DNA of 20,066 nt, from the IMG/VR virus record IMGVR_UViG_3300023272_000013, positions 1 through 20,066 of that record; one strand, written 5' to 3'. The notes under the pieces were generated by a model. It saw nothing but the letters and a program-made list of their open reading frames with translations, was not told the DNA's origin and did not search any database. The stretch is from a virus. Made by a program: the position numbers and the translations under genes. Shown in pieces: positions 1,991-11,436 of the stretch; positions within the stretch are counted from its first letter, which is position 1, and every line of letters begins with the position of its first letter.

Positions 1991-2283
1991 AGCGCCTCCA
2001 GCTTGGCGAGAGCGTAATGTATCGGGTCGATGTCATTGCGGTATCTCGGCGCACGCCCGGACAATGCCTTGAGAATCTTGCCCACACGCATGTCGCGGTC
2101 GTTGTCCCAATCATCGAATGCCTCTCCTGCAATGATCGGCACAGTGCGCAGTGCTTCCGCACACTCGACGAGGGCGAGCAGTGCATTAGCGGTGATGATT
2201 ACCGGCTGTTTCCTGGCAAGGCTTTCTCTGATCGTGATGCGGAATCCAGAGAGCACCGAATCCGAGGGCAGCAGCTCGCTCAT
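1987..2283 (-). CDS. Hypothetical protein, 98 aa
   Basis: Coupled to the upstream gene by ATGA at 2283-2280 and to the downstream gene by ATGA at 1990-1987. The middle (VIITANALLALVECAEALRTV) is a hydrophobic helix of the kind common in short phage proteins with an AALLA-ALRE pattern, more likely soluble than membrane-spanning because it holds Glu and Arg. It ends HYALAKLEAL. No function can be assigned. Confidence 0.65.
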   Translation of the reverse strand: MSELLPSDSVLSGFRITIRESLARKQPVIITANALLALVECAEALRTVPIIAGEAFDDWDNDRDMRVGKILKALSGRAPRYRNDIDPIHYALAKLEAL

Positions 2284-2723
2284 GCTTCCTCCAGTGCACC
2301 GCTTTTGATGATCTCGACAGCCTTGAGGCAGCGAGCGACATCAAACATGCCGACGTGACATTCCGCGCGCGGGATGCCCATCAGCTCGGCTAGCTTCTTG
2401 TAACGTCCACCGCGAGCCATGCCCTTGTTGTAGCGAGGGTCAGTCTGACGCTTCAGCATAAGGCGGCGCTCCCATATCGGATCGAACACGGCATGCACTG
2501 ACATCTTCGCGCGGCGCAGCTCAGCGTTTGCGAGACGACCCAGGGGCCGCACAGTGCCGGGGTGGCATCCAACGTAGGCATCGCAGGGTAGGCACGCCCA
2601 GAACTGCTTGGATGCAAGGTCAGGCCGATGCGGATAGATCACGTCGCCGCCCACGAGCTTTGCCTTTCCCTGACAGTAGTCGCATGCGACTCGCCCATCA
2701 GAAGGAATCAGCTCAGAATTCAT
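2280..2723 (-). CDS. Zinc-finger protein of the DUF3268 type, 147 aa
   Basis: The protein starting MNSELIPSDG carries paired cysteines C14/C17 (CDYC) and C44/C47 (CLPC), then C53 and a conserved GCHPGT-RPLGRLAN run and an ECHVGMFD segment near the C terminus. From family knowledge this layout matches the zinc-finger-containing DUF3268 proteins found in phages and prophages, whose biochemical role is not known. ATG 2723 is preferred over an extension to 2801 that would overlap the upstream gene almost fully. It overlaps the upstream gene end by 11 bases. A nucleic-acid-binding role is an inference from the zinc ribbon only. Confidence 0.8.
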   Translation of the reverse strand: MNSELIPSDGRVACDYCQGKAKLVGGDVIYPHRPDLASKQFWACLPCDAYVGCHPGTVRPLGRLANAELRRAKMSVHAVFDPIWERRLMLKRQTDPRYNKGMARGGRYKKLAELMGIPRAECHVGMFDVARCLKAVEIIKSGALEEA

Positions 2724-2901
2724 TCGACACCCCACTTGCGTCAGCGTCCTTGCGAAGGCCGCATTCCTTGCAGATGAACTCGCCGCTGCGCAGGCGCTCA
2801 ATCTCGGCGACGAGGCTGTGAATCACCATCCCCTCGGTGTAGATGGGATTCCAGTCTCGCCGGATCGCGGCTAGCTCTTCGGGTGTGAGTTGTTCGCTCA
2901 T
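2713..2901 (-). CDS. Small protein with single CxxC, 62 aa
   Basis: The ATG at 2901 overlaps the upstream stop as ATGA. The product starts MSEQLTPEELAAIRRDW, has a probable helix (GMVIHSLVAEIERLR) and a single ICKECG pair at residues 44-47. One CxxC pair could bind zinc only in a dimer or with other ligands. No family recognised. The helix plus Cys pair resembles other short accessory proteins in this operon. Confidence 0.65.
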   Translation of the reverse strand: MSEQLTPEELAAIRRDWNPIYTEGMVIHSLVAEIERLRSGEFICKECGLRKDADASGVSNEF

Positions 2902-3137
2902 TTCGCCACCAACTCCCAGCCGCTAGAATGCTTGTGCATGCGGCGCACGGACACCCAAGTAGGGTTCCTAAAGGTATCAATGCGCACCACTTTCACCCGC
3001 CCTGCATCGGCGTCAATCTCGCAGACCTGAACTTTGCGCAGGCCCTGCTGCCGCTTATCCATGTCCACCCATACCTGTCCGACGGCGACACGGATGCCGT
3101 CCTTTGTTGTCAGAGTGTCTTTCGTAGGCTTACTCAT
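2898..3137 (-). CDS. Small beta-rich protein, 79 aa
   Basis: The product opens MSKPTKDTLTTKDG and then reads VAVGQVWVDMDKR, a pattern (VGQVW followed by alternating strands and an RRM segment near the end) seen in short phage proteins likely to fold as a small barrel. Two starts are possible: TTG at 3140, 7 bases after GGGAG, or ATG at 3137, 10 bases after it; ATG is chosen. The ribosome site lies within the end of the sigma gene, so the two are probably coupled. Function unknown. Confidence 0.65.
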   Translation of the reverse strand: MSKPTKDTLTTKDGIRVAVGQVWVDMDKRQQGLRKVQVCEIDADAGRVKVVRIDTFRNPTWVSVRRMHKHSSGWELVAK

Positions 3138-3141
3138 CAAT

Positions 3142-3651
3142 TCATCTCTCCCAGGCTAGCAAACGCAGGCGAGCCTTTGCCTGTGTCAGATATTTTTCTA
3201 TGGTGAACACGCTCAGCCCAAGTTTCTCGGCGCATTCCTCGTAACTGAGACCATCCCTCTTGTGGGCCAGTAGCACTGCCGCGTGCGTTGGCGGTAGCTG
3301 TGCTATCGCTCTATCTATCTGTTGCTGAAGATTTAAGCGCTCCTCCTTGTCGTCCTCCAGGTATACGCCCGTGCCGTCAGCCGCATCATCTGCTAACTCA
3401 CTGTCGGTCGTGATGCATTTGCGCCTAGCATCTGATTCTATGTAGTGATCTGCCAGGATGTGAGACGCGACTCCGTAGAGGTAGGCGAGTGGTCTGTCGA
3501 TACATTTCTGATCGTCCTTCTCGCGCACCAGCCGAAGCCACACGTCTTGCGCCAAATCATTCACCTCGCGCGGATTTTTCAGGCGACACAACAGGTATTT
3601 GTGCAGCTGCTTGGCGTATAGCGTCGGCGCGACTCGTGCGAAATCGTGCAT
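3142..3651 (-). CDS. ECF-type RNA polymerase sigma factor (FecI-like), 169 aa
   Basis: Residues about 12-75 match sigma region 2 of extracytoplasmic-function sigma factors (DLAQDVWLRLVRE, then RPLAYLYGVASHILADHY), and residues about 112-165 match region 4 (AIAQLPPTHAAVLL, then GLSYEECAEKLGLSVFTIEKYL), the helix-turn-helix that reads the -35 element. The linker (80-108) is acidic. The length and two-domain form are usual for the family, closest by eye to the FecI group. The start has GGAG 6 bases upstream and lies 17 bases after the repressor stop, so both are probably on one transcript. No anti-sigma gene is seen. Expected role: bind host core polymerase and direct it to a distinct promoter set. 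Such a gene in a phage immunity region is unusual. Confidence 0.88.
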   Translation of the reverse strand: MHDFARVAPTLYAKQLHKYLLCRLKNPREVNDLAQDVWLRLVREKDDQKCIDRPLAYLYGVASHILADHYIESDARRKCITTDSELADDAADGTGVYLEDDKEERLNLQQQIDRAIAQLPPTHAAVLLAHKRDGLSYEECAEKLGLSVFTIEKYLTQAKARLRLLAWER

Positions 3652-3668: not shown

Positions 3669-3908
3669 CTAGTAATACCCGCCGTTCAGTAGCTCGCTCA
3701 CCGTCAGCTTGACGCCTTTTTTCTTGGCCAATTCGAGAAGCTCATCGAAGTGCCAACTCGGCACCCTGCCCCGCCTAACCCAGTTATTGACCCGGCTATG
3801 TGTGCAGCCGATCTGCCTTGCCAGCTCCCTTAATCCATCGAATCGCTTCACCAAAAGTTGGGGCGGTGTGAGCTTCTCTTTTTTCATTTGTCGGTTGCAA
3901 CTGGCCAT
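3669..3908 (-). CDS. Cro/YdaS-like HTH repressor, 79 aa
   Basis: Residues about 17-75 form a compact helix-turn-helix: LRELARQIGCTHSRVNNWVRRGRVPSW, then a helix and LTVSELL. The ARQIG...VNNW..RG.VP pattern is typical of Cro/YdaS-type phage regulators. There is no C-terminal cleavage or oligomer domain, so it is more like Cro or a minimal repressor than lambda CI. It sits divergent from the recT-like gene with only 52 bases between, the usual place for an immunity switch. A leftward promoter places transcription start about 3 bases before ATG 3908, making the message nearly leaderless; ATG at 3887 is the alternative start. Neither has a good ribosome site. Confidence 0.82.
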   Translation of the reverse strand: MASCNRQMKKEKLTPPQLLVKRFDGLRELARQIGCTHSRVNNWVRRGRVPSWHFDELLELAKKKGVKLTVSELLNGGYY

Positions 3909-3916
3909 CGATGTGG

Positions 3917-3941
3917 TACTGTATTCCTTAAGAGCACGGTA
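3917..3941. promoter_or_regulatory. Candidate operator in the divergent switch region
   Basis: TACTGT (3917-3922) and ACGGTA (3936-3941) form an imperfect inverted repeat (five of six pairs) with a 13-base centre that holds the palindrome CTTAAG (3927-3932). It covers the leftward promoter and any start for the rightward recT operon. A rightward promoter must lie close by; the best I see is weak (TTGCAA at 3895-3900 with TACTGT at 3917-3922, 16-base spacer). Operator function is inferred from position and symmetry. Confidence 0.4.
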
Positions 3942-3946
3942 GTCAA
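3918..3946 (-). promoter_or_regulatory. Leftward sigma70-like promoter for repressor and sigma operon
   Basis: Reading the minus strand: -35 TTGACT (3946-3941, five of six), 17-base spacer, -10 TACAGT (3923-3918, four of six). Transcription would begin near 3911, about 3 bases before the repressor ATG at 3908. The site overlaps the inverted repeat at 3917-3941, so it could be controlled by the repressor itself. Confidence 0.6.
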
Positions 3947-3960
3947 TAGGAGATTTAGAG

Positions 3961-4698
3961 ATGACGAACGCAGTTGTACCTTACGAACAGATAGAGCGCA
4001 TGGCTGTGAGTGTTGCTAACTCAAAATTGTTTGGCGTCAAAACAAAGGATGAGGCCATCGCAATCATGTTGTTGGCTCAGTCAGAAGGAATTCATCCCAT
4101 GACGGCCGTGCAAACGTATCACATCATCAACGGTAGGCCGTCGATGAAGGCGGATACGATGCTGGCCCGCTTCCAGGCGGATGGCGGCACCGTCGAATGG
4201 TCGACACTCAACGACCAGAAAGCGGAGGCGATCTTTCGTCACCCTCAGTCGCCAAAGCCTGTAACGATTGACTGGACCATTGAGCGCGCCCAGAAGGCTG
4301 GGCTCACGAAGAAAGATGTTTGGATAGGCTACGGTCGCGCCATGCTGCGCAGTCGCGTCATCAGCGAGGGCGTGCGGACTGTTCGCCCTGGAGTTATTGC
4401 CGGAATCTACACTCCAGAGGAACTGGTGTCGCTCGATCCTGATTCAGTTGTGCCTTCCTCTCAGGAAGAAGCCATCAACAACTTCGAGCGGCCCGCCCTG
4501 GCTCAGTCCGATGTGGACGACTTCCTCAAGGACATCACGAGCGCGCCTGACATGTCATCGCTCAAGGACAACTTCAGCGCCGCCTGGACGGCTGCGAAGA
4601 AAGCCGGCGATGAGCGGCGCATGTGGTCTCTGAAAACCGCTTACGCTGCGCGCCGCGACGAGCTGTCCATGGATCAGATGCCGCAGGAGCAAATCTAA
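3961..4698 (+). CDS. RecT-like single-strand annealing protein
   Basis: This 245-residue protein belongs by eye to the RecT/Bet-type phage recombinase group: KTKDEAIAIMLLAQSEG, then HPMTAVQTYHIINGRPS and MKADTMLARFQADGG in the first half, and a conserved W-x3-YGRAMLRSRVISEGVR segment before GIYTPEE. Such proteins anneal complementary single strands in phage recombination and DNA repair. The tail (about 165-245) is acidic and divergent, as is common. AGGAG lies 7 bases before the ATG. It is the first gene of the rightward block, and its stop overlaps the next start (TAATG) with a Gp157-like gene, a frequent recT partner. No separate exonuclease gene is seen in the window. Confidence 0.8.
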   Translation: MTNAVVPYEQIERMAVSVANSKLFGVKTKDEAIAIMLLAQSEGIHPMTAVQTYHIINGRPSMKADTMLARFQADGGTVEWSTLNDQKAEAIFRHPQSPKPVTIDWTIERAQKAGLTKKDVWIGYGRAMLRSRVISEGVRTVRPGVIAGIYTPEELVSLDPDSVVPSSQEEAINNFERPALAQSDVDDFLKDITSAPDMSSLKDNFSAAWTAAKKAGDERRMWSLKTAYAARRDELSMDQMPQEQI

Positions 4699-6778: not shown

Positions 6779-7024
6779 ATGGTCACGGCATCAGTTTCAG
6801 CGCGGGCACTTCAAAAGTTCGACTGCTTAAGCAAGCGAGAGTTGGAGGTCGCACGCGGCATCGCTCACGGTCATCGGGCCGCAGACATCGCCGAAGAACT
6901 CGGCATTGATGTCAAAACCGTCCACACCTACCGCAGCCGCGTGCTGCTGAAACTCCAAGCGACCGGCTCAGCCCGAGTCGCCATCCTGGCATACGTCGCC
7001 GGAATTATCGATATCGAAATCTAG
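6779..7024 (+). CDS. LuxR/GerE-type HTH protein, 81 aa
   Basis: The protein is little more than a GerE-type DNA-binding domain: LSKRELEVARGIAHGH, AADIAEELGIDVKTVHTYRSRVLLKL, then AYVAGI. The pattern LS.RE.EV...A.G.....IA..L.....TV..Y...V..KL is that of LuxR-family C-terminal domains. No receiver or ligand domain is present. GGAG lies 5 bases before the ATG. It sits between early genes and the replicative ATPase and may tune early or replication transcription; its target is unknown. Confidence 0.85.
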   Translation: MVTASVSARALQKFDCLSKRELEVARGIAHGHRAADIAEELGIDVKTVHTYRSRVLLKLQATGSARVAILAYVAGIIDIEI

Positions 7025-7033
7025 GAGAGGTTC

Positions 7034-8623
7034 ATGAGCCTCTCGCTCCAAGGCCTGCCGTCCGAGATTACGGCTGAACATAAGTTCGTGGTCGTCGACA
7101 CGATGGCTGCTGCTGAGCAAGTGCAGCGGCTGCTGCCTGCGCAGGTGGTGCTGTGGCCTGAGACAGATCACACCCTAGACATGCTCCCACTGGAGTCGTG
7201 GATGCCGCTGCAAGGCAATGACGTGCTGCTGTGGGCCACCAATTCAGATGGCGCCAGGGCAGCCATGGCAACAGTGGCGCGCGCCATTGAGCGCGTCACA
7301 GATCGCGTGCGCATGGTCTACGTCAATGGAGAGGACCCGGGAGGTTTCTCCGCCAGTGAGATGGGTGGCTGGACCACGGCACAGCTGGTCGAGTGGGCCA
7401 AGCCGAGGACGAGGCAATACTCGAAGCCTGATCCAGCCCCCAGCTCCATGGATTCACTTTACGCCGAACCAGCCCCGCCATTCCCATTCGAGCGCGAGCC
7501 TGGCATGGATGATGAGCCAGGAACCGCAATTGCGGAAGAAACTGATAAGCCAGAACGCCGTCGCATCAAATGGACTGATCTGGAAGGCAAGACCCCACCC
7601 GAACGCAACTGGATCATCAGTCACTGGCTCACCCATGGCCCGACGCTGCTCGCCGGCCAGGGCGGCATCGGCAAGACATTGCTAGCTCAGATGATAGGCA
7701 CGGCCATCGCGATGGGGCGCCCGTACATCGATGAGGTAAAGGAACCCGCTAACGTCCTGTTCTGGGCATGCGAAGACGATCATGACGAGCTGTGGCGCCG
7801 CCAGATCGCCATCTGCAATCACATGGATATCCCAATGTCAGTGCTCGAAGACAAGCTGATCGTCGAGCCACGACTTGGCTTGGACAACGCACTCATGCTC
7901 CAGCAGTTTGCGCAGCCCACCTGGACACCGCTGCGCCAGGAGCTGCGACAACAGGTCAACGACTACAAAGCCAGCGTCCTTATAGTCGATAACATCGGGC
8001 AGTGCTTCGGCGGAAATGAGAATGACCGCCACCACGTCACCGCCTTCCTGTCAGGTCTTGTAGGCCTCTCTGACTCCCCCCTTGCCGTCCTCATGCTGGG
8101 GCACCCAGCGAAGGCTGCAGGCAGCGAATACTCAGGCTCAACCGCATGGGAAACCGCCGTCCGCATGCGCTGGTACATGGGGACCACGCTGCCAGACCAG
8201 AAGCCCGAGGAAGGCGAAGAGCCGGACAGCGCGATCCGCTATCTGTGTAAGCGCAAGGCGAATTACAGCCAACTCGATTACCGAGTCCTGACCTATACCG
8301 ACGGCGCCTACGCCTGTGATGCGCCCAAGAGCGGGCCATCCTTCGCCCAAAAGTACGGCGCAGGTGCTCGAAACCATGCCGCAGATACACTTGTGCAAGC
8401 CGCTATCGAGGAGTTTTTCCGTCAGCGTATTCGGGTAACTGCTGGTCAACGTTCCCCTGATTACTTTGTAGAGAAAATGAGGCAAGCGAAAATATCCCAG
8501 GACTACACCACGCGAGAACTCAACGAATCCCTCATGCGGCTGCGTATGGCAGGGAAAATTGTCGAGAAAGCAGTGGGCACATATGCAAATCGAGGGGCAA
8601 TGATGGGTTTGGCGCCCGCATAG
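7034..8623 (+). CDS. Replicative AAA ATPase/helicase (RepA/AAA_25-like) with degenerate TOPRIM-like N terminus
   Basis: Residues about 195-365 hold a RecA-like ATPase: Walker A GQGGIGKT at 208-215, FWACEDD at 243-249, Walker B VLIVDN at 315-320, and a LGHPAKAAG sensor-like run. This is the AAA_25/RepA-type module of phage and plasmid replicative helicases. Residues about 15-125 align by pattern with a TOPRIM primase domain (VLLW, then GARAAMA, and a GWTTAQLVEWA end), but the usual DxD acidic residues read TNS and the leading Glu-Gly is absent, so primase catalysis is doubtful. The C-terminal 110 residues look like a winged-helix segment. GGAGAGG precedes the ATG. Expected role: DNA unwinding or loading at the phage origin. 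Confidence 0.82.
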   Translation: MSLSLQGLPSEITAEHKFVVVDTMAAAEQVQRLLPAQVVLWPETDHTLDMLPLESWMPLQGNDVLLWATNSDGARAAMATVARAIERVTDRVRMVYVNGEDPGGFSASEMGGWTTAQLVEWAKPRTRQYSKPDPAPSSMDSLYAEPAPPFPFEREPGMDDEPGTAIAEETDKPERRRIKWTDLEGKTPPERNWIISHWLTHGPTLLAGQGGIGKTLLAQMIGTAIAMGRPYIDEVKEPANVLFWACEDDHDELWRRQIAICNHMDIPMSVLEDKLIVEPRLGLDNALMLQQFAQPTWTPLRQELRQQVNDYKASVLIVDNIGQCFGGNENDRHHVTAFLSGLVGLSDSPLAVLMLGHPAKAAGSEYSGSTAWETAVRMRWYMGTTLPDQKPEEGEEPDSAIRYLCKRKANYSQLDYRVLTYTDGAYACDAPKSGPSFAQKYGAGARNHAADTLVQAAIEEFFRQRIRVTAGQRSPDYFVEKMRQAKISQDYTTRELNESLMRLRMAGKIVEKAVGTYANRGAMMGLAPA

Positions 8624-8670
8624 CGGAATGCACAACTCTGCTCAGTTCAATGCTCAAATGCACACGACAA

Positions 8671-8699
8671 TTGACTTTGCACAAATGGGGGGATAAAAA
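8671..8699 (+). promoter_or_regulatory. Rightward sigma70-like promoter in the repeat island
   Basis: -35 TTGACT (8671-8676, five of six), spacer 17 bases, -10 TAAAAA (8694-8699, four of six). The start would fall near 8705-8707, in the loop of the hairpin, and transcription would reach the HTH gene at 8814. One heptamer copy (8678-8684) lies within the spacer, so a protein bound there would block or alter the promoter. Confidence 0.5.
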
Positions 8700-8732
8700 C
8701 CCGGCAGGTTTTTATATCCCCCCCCCATTGTG
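8680..8732. repeat. Strong G/C inverted repeat, possible origin structure
   Basis: A perfect 9-pair stem, ATAAAAACC (8693-8701) with GGTTTTTAT (8707-8715), has a 5-base loop. Below it, six G (8687-8692) face nine C (8718-8726) after a 2-base bulge, and the outer CACAA/TTGTG ends pair again. It is strong on both strands. It is followed neither by a plain T run nor by an open gene for 80 bases. Confidence 0.75.
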
Positions 8733-8739
8733 CGTTGAA
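8711..8739 (-). promoter_or_regulatory. Leftward promoter-like site facing the rightward one
   Basis: On the minus strand: TTCAAC (8739-8734), spacer 17 bases, TATAAA (8716-8711). It is the near mirror image of the rightward site because both lie in the inverted repeat arms. If active it would send an antisense transcript into the 3' end of the ATPase gene. Weaker -35 than its partner; may be only a product of the symmetry. Confidence 0.35.
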
Positions 8740-8784
8740 TTGTGCAGATTTTCTGAATTGTGCAATTGTGCAAGACGCGGAAAA

Positions 8785-8800
8785 TGTGTGATCTCACACA
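8785..8800. promoter_or_regulatory. Inverted repeat ahead of the HTH gene at 8814
   Basis: TGTGTGA-TC-TCACACA is a perfect 7-base inverted repeat with a 2-base centre, 13 bases before the ATG at 8814. It is a likely operator, possibly for the small HTH protein encoded just downstream. The spacing does not fit the CRP consensus well. Confidence 0.5.
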
Positions 8801-8813
8801 AGAAACGGGATAA

Positions 8814-9050
8814 ATGACACGCACAGCCCGCCTCTACAGCACCATCGGACGCCCCAGATCGCTGACTGACGCCCAGGTCGAGCGCATCATGGAATGGCAA
8901 CGCAACCTCAAGACCAAGGAGCAGCTGGCGGCTGAGATGGGGGTGCCGAAGAGCACGGTGGAGCACTGCCTGCGGCTGCGTGGGCAGTTCAAGAGGCCGC
9001 CGCCAGATAAGTGTAATCCACCTGTTGACGCCGAGACCGGTCACAGGTAA
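8814..9050 (+). CDS. Small HTH protein, 78 aa
   Basis: After GRPRSLTDAQVERIMEW the protein has a helix-turn-helix of resolvase/homeodomain-like form, TKEQLAAEMGVPKSTVEHCL (about residues 34-53), with a basic, Pro-rich tail. Such small HTH proteins are common phage regulators or replication accessory proteins. It lies directly after the repeat island and behind an inverted repeat at 8785-8800, so it may bind one of these; that link is inference. The site ACGGGA precedes the ATG. Confidence 0.75.
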   Translation: MTRTARLYSTIGRPRSLTDAQVERIMEWQRNLKTKEQLAAEMGVPKSTVEHCLRLRGQFKRPPPDKCNPPVDAETGHR

Positions 9051-11038: not shown

Positions 11039-11067
11039 GCGCATACTTGAATCGACTACGTCACACT

Positions 11068-11436
11068 ATGCACTCAGACTCCATCGAATATTTACCGGCT
11101 GGCACCACCCTGCGCCCGTTGCGTGATCGAGTGCTCATCAAGCCGTTGCCGTGGGATGCGTCAAAGACGATTATTGCCATTCGTCACGGCCGTCCGGTTC
11201 GAGGTGAGGTCATTGCAGTCGGGCCAGGGTCGCATCCGAAGAAGTATCGCGAGAAGAAGTCGAAATACGTTTTGTCAAATCACTTCGTTCCGAGTGATGT
11301 GAAGCCAGGCGATATCGTCGAGCTGGGAGGGCTCAATGCATTCGACGGCCTTGGCTATTCGTTCCCGCAGGTCATGATTGGCAACGAACTTCACCTCCTG
11401 TGTCAGGAAGGCGATATCGCTGTGGTGCGTTCATGA
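11068..11436 (+). CDS. GroES/Cpn10-like co-chaperonin, 122 aa
   Basis: The chain LRPLRDRVLIKPLPWDAS (15-32), a hydrophobic IIAI in the mobile-loop position (35-38), GRPVRGEVIAVGPG (41-54), VKPGDIVELGG (78-88) and a final LHLLCQEGDIAVV (108-120) follows the GroES fold order: the opening strand, mobile loop, GEV-AVGPG strand and closing strands. A basic insert (about 55-72, KKYREKKSK) replaces the roof-loop region and makes it longer than the usual 95-100 residues. GroES caps GroEL during folding; phage versions such as T4 gp31 help fold capsid protein. ATG 11068 is chosen; an in-frame TTG at 11047 is possible and neither has a clear ribosome site. Its TGA overlaps the next ATG. Its place before the terminase genes supports a head-assembly role. 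Confidence 0.82.
   Translation: MHSDSIEYLPAGTTLRPLRDRVLIKPLPWDASKTIIAIRHGRPVRGEVIAVGPGSHPKKYREKKSKYVLSNHFVPSDVKPGDIVELGGLNAFDGLGYSFPQVMIGNELHLLCQEGDIAVVRS

Follow-up and report, generated by a model that had tools for sequence, protein, structure and literature searches.

ECF sigma factors are usually described together with their anti-sigma factors. Among the systems closest to the locus presented in this work are the FecI-FecR-TonB receptor systems of bacteria; in Escherichia coli, FecI requires an N-terminal fragment of FecR for its activity (PMC9249621), so a FecI-type factor without FecR may be inactive unless it has become adapted. Phage-encoded ECF sigma factors are already known (PMC7881722, PMC8948821), and phages of Bacillus constitute a precedent for sigma factors acting on a host network (PMC9429907). 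A full-text literature search returned no paper combining a phage or viral sigma factor with both FecI and FecR, and the FecR-free FecI lineage carried by the phages described here may be undescribed.

The stretch of DNA analyzed in this work (the window) is a 20,066-bp IMG/VR virus record, about half as long as its full-length portal relatives. From position 3961 rightwards, it encodes a RecT-like protein, Gp157, an AAA helicase, GroES, TerL, a P22-like portal, a scaffold (named by its position and its homology to the scaffold of phage PBR31) and a P22-like coat protein. In the opposite direction, starting at 3908, small genes that abut or overlap form a chain made up of an HTH gene, the sigma gene and no fewer than seven small ORFs, among which is one for a DUF3268 protein (Table 1). 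Elsewhere in the window, an 81-aa protein (6779-7024) consists of a LuxR-type GerE DNA-binding domain alone, directly before the helicase gene, and the GroES-like protein (11047-11436), encoded in the packaging region, has homologues in many portal-related phages (34-63% identical). The intergenic region 8620-8813, before a small HTH gene (8814-9050), resembles an operator array, with five TTGCACAA-like sites between 8628 and 8773 and a 15-bp inverted repeat (GGGGGGATAAAAACC/GGTTTTTATATCCCC), and is possibly the real switch region; across the whole window, TTGCACAA-like sites are not commoner than chance.

Table 1. Features of the leftward operon and its divergent neighbor in the window.
Feature	Position	Strand	Basis or remark
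Small ORF of 160 aa	1246..1728	-	Over part of its length, 34% identity with an ORF located after the sigma gene in phage contig G429
Small ORF of 89 aa	1721..1990	-	ORF list; leftward operon
Small ORF of 98 aa	1987..2283	-	33% identity with an ORF located after the sigma gene in phage contig G428
DUF3268 zinc-finger protein (phrog_1934)	2280..2723	-	Profile match; leftward operon
Small ORF overlapping the 79-aa ORF	2713..2901	-	ORF list; leftward operon
Small ORF of 79 aa, directly downstream of the sigma	2898..3137	-	FecR's position in bacterial relatives
FecI-type ECF sigma factor, regions 2 and 4, no adjoining anti-sigma	3142..3651	-	Profiles, predicted fold, tree
Cro-like HTH protein with a carph-isopro domain; heads the leftward operon	3669..3908	-	NCBIfam NF046037
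Candidate sigma70-type promoter TTGACT-17-TACAGT for the leftward operon	3918..3946	-	Placed correctly; matches of this type not commoner than in shuffles
RecT-like annealing protein; heads the divergent rightward operon	3961..4698	+	PHROG 561, 1.2e-21

The sigma ORF encodes 169 aa from an ATG start, with GGAG 6 bases upstream, and the following family matches lie above the curated cut-offs: Pfam Sigma70_r4_2 (1.6e-14, 53.7 bits; cut-off 25.7), Sigma70_r2 (5.3e-6, 26.6 bits; cut-off 24) and Sigma70_ECF (5.6e-9, 36.6 bits; cut-off 21.1), and NCBIfam TIGR02937 sigma70-ECF (67.4 bits; cut-off 42.9). Only regions 2 and 4 are present, within the about 160-200 aa of ECF (group 4) factors, and the linker between them (residues about 70-104) is acidic. 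The AlphaFold2 model displayed a mean pLDDT of 84.9 and a pTM of 0.46, meaning that the mutual orientation of the two domains is not fixed; its top PDB matches in Foldseek are ECF sigma factors, and its region 4 fits that of E. coli sigmaE on -35 DNA (1.5 A, 59 columns). Profiles and predicted fold confirm the ORF as an intact ECF sigma factor, as the initial annotation had proposed from the two regions, the acidic linker and the normal length. The other local details of that annotation also agree with our results: the sigma follows the HTH gene on the same strand after exactly 17 bp (3669 vs 3651), and no anti-sigma was found in the window contig by profile searches. The protein could plausibly redirect the host RNA polymerase, as had been suggested. 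The annotation had recognized a phage-encoded ECF sigma, and had missed its FecI-type nature and the FecR that usually neighbors its bacterial relatives.

The closest named relatives of the window sigma are bacterial: the one in a gammaproteobacterial MAG is 53% identical to it, and the one in Peristeroidobacter soli 49%, with 144 and 97 matches to the window sigma in the respective genomes. Its score against the NCBIfam FecI equivalog (50.5 bits) is below the cut-off of 260, and thus it is not FecI itself. In 20 paralogue regions fetched from G028 and G029, nearly all display FecR directly downstream of the sigma and a TonB receptor divergent to it (L086 being the exception), which is the FecI-FecR-FecA layout. 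The closest bacterial sequence (L148) is 59% identical to the window sigma, and is accompanied by a DUF4880-only mini-protein in place of a full FecR; the Steroidobacter orthologues (L003, L149-L151) have no FecR directly downstream. At the two bacterial loci of sigmas nearest to the phage clade described below (L003, 8498-10459; L148, 7362-12186), the sigma, a DUF4880-only mini-FecR and a third gene, which we take to resemble a REP-associated transposase, stand close together.

Among 50,697 phage records searched by tblastn, no phiEco32-group phage was found in the matches to the window sigma. Two of the better matches, Pseudomonas phage 'Y12' and a faecal contig, are themselves FecI-FecR-TonB receptor loci and thus probably host DNA, although deposited as phages (MT835580.1, L005, and OQ572413.1, L004); these two matches (H1 and H4) were rejected on that ground. 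Other matches were weak (25-33%).

The detection of phage relatives in IMG/VR required an alignment of 21 sequences (A2), as a three-sequence alignment found nothing; single-sequence scans with the sigma, the HTH protein and the RecT-like protein gave no matches either. With A2, six phage contigs of 38-72 kb were recovered, with sigmas 55-62% identical to that of the window (a seventh, distant match, L102, with 34%, was left aside), and a second scan using a phage-only alignment returned the same six contigs and no more. Phage genes in these contigs include a terminase in three, a P22-like portal in two, and a DNA polymerase together with a tape measure in one. Integrases occur in two of the six, with an excisionase as well in one of those two, and few genes are shared among the contigs, except between G426 and G429. 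According to these genomes, at least six other phages, mostly unrelated, carry this kind of sigma, which is therefore probably a means of redirecting the host RNA polymerase, perhaps towards host genes instead of phage genes. Its gene lies among small genes, probably early ones, of structurally different phages.

In a maximum-likelihood tree, a single clade unites the seven phage sigmas (93/90, recovered in 94% of bootstrap trees). It is nested in a starred 98/93 group of otherwise bacterial sigmas from Steroidobacteraceae, most of them FecR-linked, which places the window sigma within the FecI type; its branch length is 0.64. Among the phage sigmas, pN ranges from 0.14 to 0.33 vs a pS of 0.66-0.89, with synonymous sites saturated. 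Amino-acid change in these proteins is strongly constrained, and the gene is retained for a function. A profile of the phage sigmas reached E 1e-40 in 9 of 217 genomes of the family of G029 and, among 369 genomes of its class, only in G029, the reference genome itself. These matches point to a host of the window phage in Steroidobacteraceae; coat-protein homologues were found in just 2 of 396 genomes of the order, so it is mainly from the sigma that we infer the host.

The partners that accompany the bacterial factors were searched for at the phage loci. FecR was not found in the six other phage contigs, nor DUF4880, the cytoplasmic part of FecR, in any of the seven, the window included, in searches with positive controls. 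Likewise, no TonB-dependent receptor was found among the window ORFs examined, or when the L002 receptor was compared by tblastn with the sigma loci of the six phages. The 79-aa ORF directly downstream of the window sigma is unlike FecR or DUF4880, and domain searches assigned no known domain to it.

The gene upstream of the sigma had been read as a Cro/YdaS-like repressor in an immunity operon, from which the sigma would be made in the lysogen or at induction. Its Cro-like character was upheld, as the protein scores 48.6 bits against NCBIfam carph-isopro (NF046037; cut-off 38) and is 33% identical to an annotated Cro-like protein of phage phiLM21, whereas its match to Pfam YdaS_toxin, with 23 bits, is below the cut-off of 30. 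The phiLM21 Cro stands divergent from the phiLM21 repressor, and the resemblance of the HTH protein to this Cro is suggestive of an early operon. The 20 kb window fragment showed neither a CI repressor nor an integrase, which leaves both the immunity operon and production in the lysogen unproven. The repressor-sigma pair did not recur in other phages, where the initial annotation had suggested looking for it: the sigma was found in six contigs and the pair in none, with no HTH homologue in the DNA examined around any of the six other phage sigmas, so the pair is particular to the window contig. Instead, these loci and the window have in common a series of small ORFs, including two weak homologues of window ORFs 1246-1728 and 1987-2283. 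Across 196 genomes of the order to which G029 belongs, a search with the HTH protein, run without a positive control, gave no match.

The bacterial sigmas nearest to the phage clade have an upstream element in common, TTG(T/A)CGG-N15-GTCGGTA, which at the lone sigma of P. soli (L003) lies about 160 bp upstream. The spacing of its GTCGG-type blocks is exactly 20 bp in each of the ten copies, which are distributed over seven sigma loci; four of these loci are orthologues, so that the independent number is about four; TTGTCGG-N15-GTCGGTA was first seen by eye in the same loci from which it is reported. In nine whole genomes, 9 of 15 exact matches to the element lie at such sigma loci vs 6 matches anywhere for a reversed control pattern, indicating that the element goes with its sigma; more distant FecI paralogues do not have TTGTCGG-N15-GTCGGTA. 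The element is a putative promoter. The region 4.2 helix KY(L/V/I)TQ is common to the phage sigmas and to all motif-bearing bacterial sigmas except L152 (KYLTL), and that of the window sigma differs from L068 at F149 and I151. Inverted repeats in the divergent regions of FecI paralogues were considered as operators or terminators; at the closest loci, these repeats turned out to be the bipartite element. The divergent intergenic regions of the G028 FecI paralogues (L068-L087) often contain an inverted repeat between the sigma and the TonB receptor, whose sequence varies by paralogue (e.g., GTCGGTA, GTTGGTA, GTCAGTA, GGGGTAG) while complementarity is kept; these repeats are possibly paralogue-specific divergent promoters co-varying with the sigma.

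Although the DNA-reading helix has hardly changed in the phage sigmas, the element was absent from about 350 kb of phage DNA in the seven contigs, where the top scores of a bipartite matrix reached at most 16.3 vs 30-40 for the training sites and 14-19 for shuffle maxima. A half-site search with AAAGTCGGTA showed no phage promoter, and an unbiased dyad search of the intergenic regions of the seven contigs, delimited by rough gene calls, yielded nothing shared beyond GC-rich noise. The shared phage promoter motif envisaged by the initial annotation was thus not recovered by any of these three approaches, which could miss a diverged motif.

As the element is absent from the phage contigs, the main targets of the phage sigma are most likely host promoters, and we tentatively favor, at a level somewhat short of probable, a phage-carried, FecR-free FecI-type sigma aimed mainly at such promoters. 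The sigma lineage would come from Steroidobacteraceae-like bacteria, would have lost FecR, and would circulate among different phages of putative Steroidobacteraceae hosts. In the window phage, the sigma would be made from a leftward operon, probably an early one, in which its gene comes second after that of the Cro-like regulator; a host sigma70 promoter probably drives this operon. Since FecR is not there to retain or activate the sigma, its output would be set by transcription; alternatively, a host FecR or DUF4880 fragment could act on it in trans. Bound to the host core RNA polymerase, the phage sigma would read TTGTCGG-N15-GTCGGTA-type promoters, most likely at the host's own sigma locus and the linked surface-receptor genes. 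Host, timing, retained specificity and the host regulon as target are presumed in this scheme. Against host promoters as targets, the element hardly occurs in the bacterial genomes outside its own sigma locus, which would imply a small host regulon; the specificity of the phage sigmas could also have changed. The most complete version of the host-promoter reading, namely that a FecI lineage devoid of FecR, after a single capture, is now common to different phages (in part temperate) and activates host TTGTCGG-N15-GTCGGTA cell-surface-signalling promoters during infection or lysogeny and thereby bypasses the nutrient-sensing control of the host regulon, is conceivable, with some doubt.

The main rival, possible although we are hesitant to adopt it, is a sigma for phage gene expression, whose holoenzyme would read diverged phage promoters as the phiEco32-type phage sigmas do. 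This role is established for the ECF-like sigmas of phages phiEco32, 7-11 and Privateer (PMC8948821, PMC7881722), and the divergence of the phage sigmas from the bacterial ones, to which the branch of the window sigma (0.64) attests, would be in keeping with it. However, no contig contains the bacterial-type element and no dyad is common to their intergenic regions, 27 portal-related phages do without a sigma scoring over the family cut-off, and the presence of the sigma in structurally different phages is more like that of an accessory gene than of a late-gene switch. A decoy, which would bind host FecR or DUF4880-only proteins, or compete for core polymerase, and disturb cell-surface signalling with no initiation of transcription, seems unlikely: conservation of region 2 and of the promoter-reading helix of region 4.2, together with the constraint on the whole gene, would not be needed by a pure decoy, even though the phages carry no partner, FecR/DUF4880 proteins abound in the putative hosts (G029 alone has 100 matches to DUF4880) and the nearest bacterial sigmas adjoin DUF4880-only mini-proteins. 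Finally, the sigma could be a host passenger acquired recently or the product of an assembly chimera, in either case devoid of a phage function. In favor of this, the nearest non-phage relatives are bacterial and two phage-database matches turned out to be host FecI-FecR-TonB DNA; we consider this reading highly improbable, given seven separate phage contigs in one clade, low dN vs saturated dS, GC and GC3 values close to those of neighboring phage genes, operon-like spacing, and searches that found neither FecR nor DUF4880.

In seven structurally mixed phage genomes, the sigma was kept and its control protein was not. If the sigma acts on host promoters, it would give the phage a compact means to take over a receptor or nutrient regulon, a reading that the predicted promoter renders directly testable. 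If true, the phage sigma would also be a natural FecI that is active in the absence of FecR, and would be relevant to the question of why the E. coli protein depends on a FecR fragment.

Compared with FecI-FecR-TonB receptor systems, the window sigma shows up to 53% identity to a FecR-linked FecI-type sigma, and 59% to the bacterial sigma beside a DUF4880-only protein, with the same domain layout and with the phage sigmas nested in the same clade; it differs in being phage-carried, with no FecR, DUF4880 protein or TonB receptor found. The sigmas of phiEco32, 7-11, GAP52 and Privateer are likewise phage-encoded and ECF-like, without an evident anti-sigma, but belong to another lineage with fold-level similarity only (20% identity to GAP52); furthermore, 7-11 and phiEco32 have promoters for their own sigma in the phage genome, whereas none were found in the window-type phages. 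The sporulation-like sigmas of Bacillus phages (PMC9429907) resemble the window sigma as host-like factors kept by phages and able to act on a host gene network, but are of the sporulation type and belong to phages of Bacillota, whereas the window sigma is of the FecI type and related to that of a Gram-negative family.
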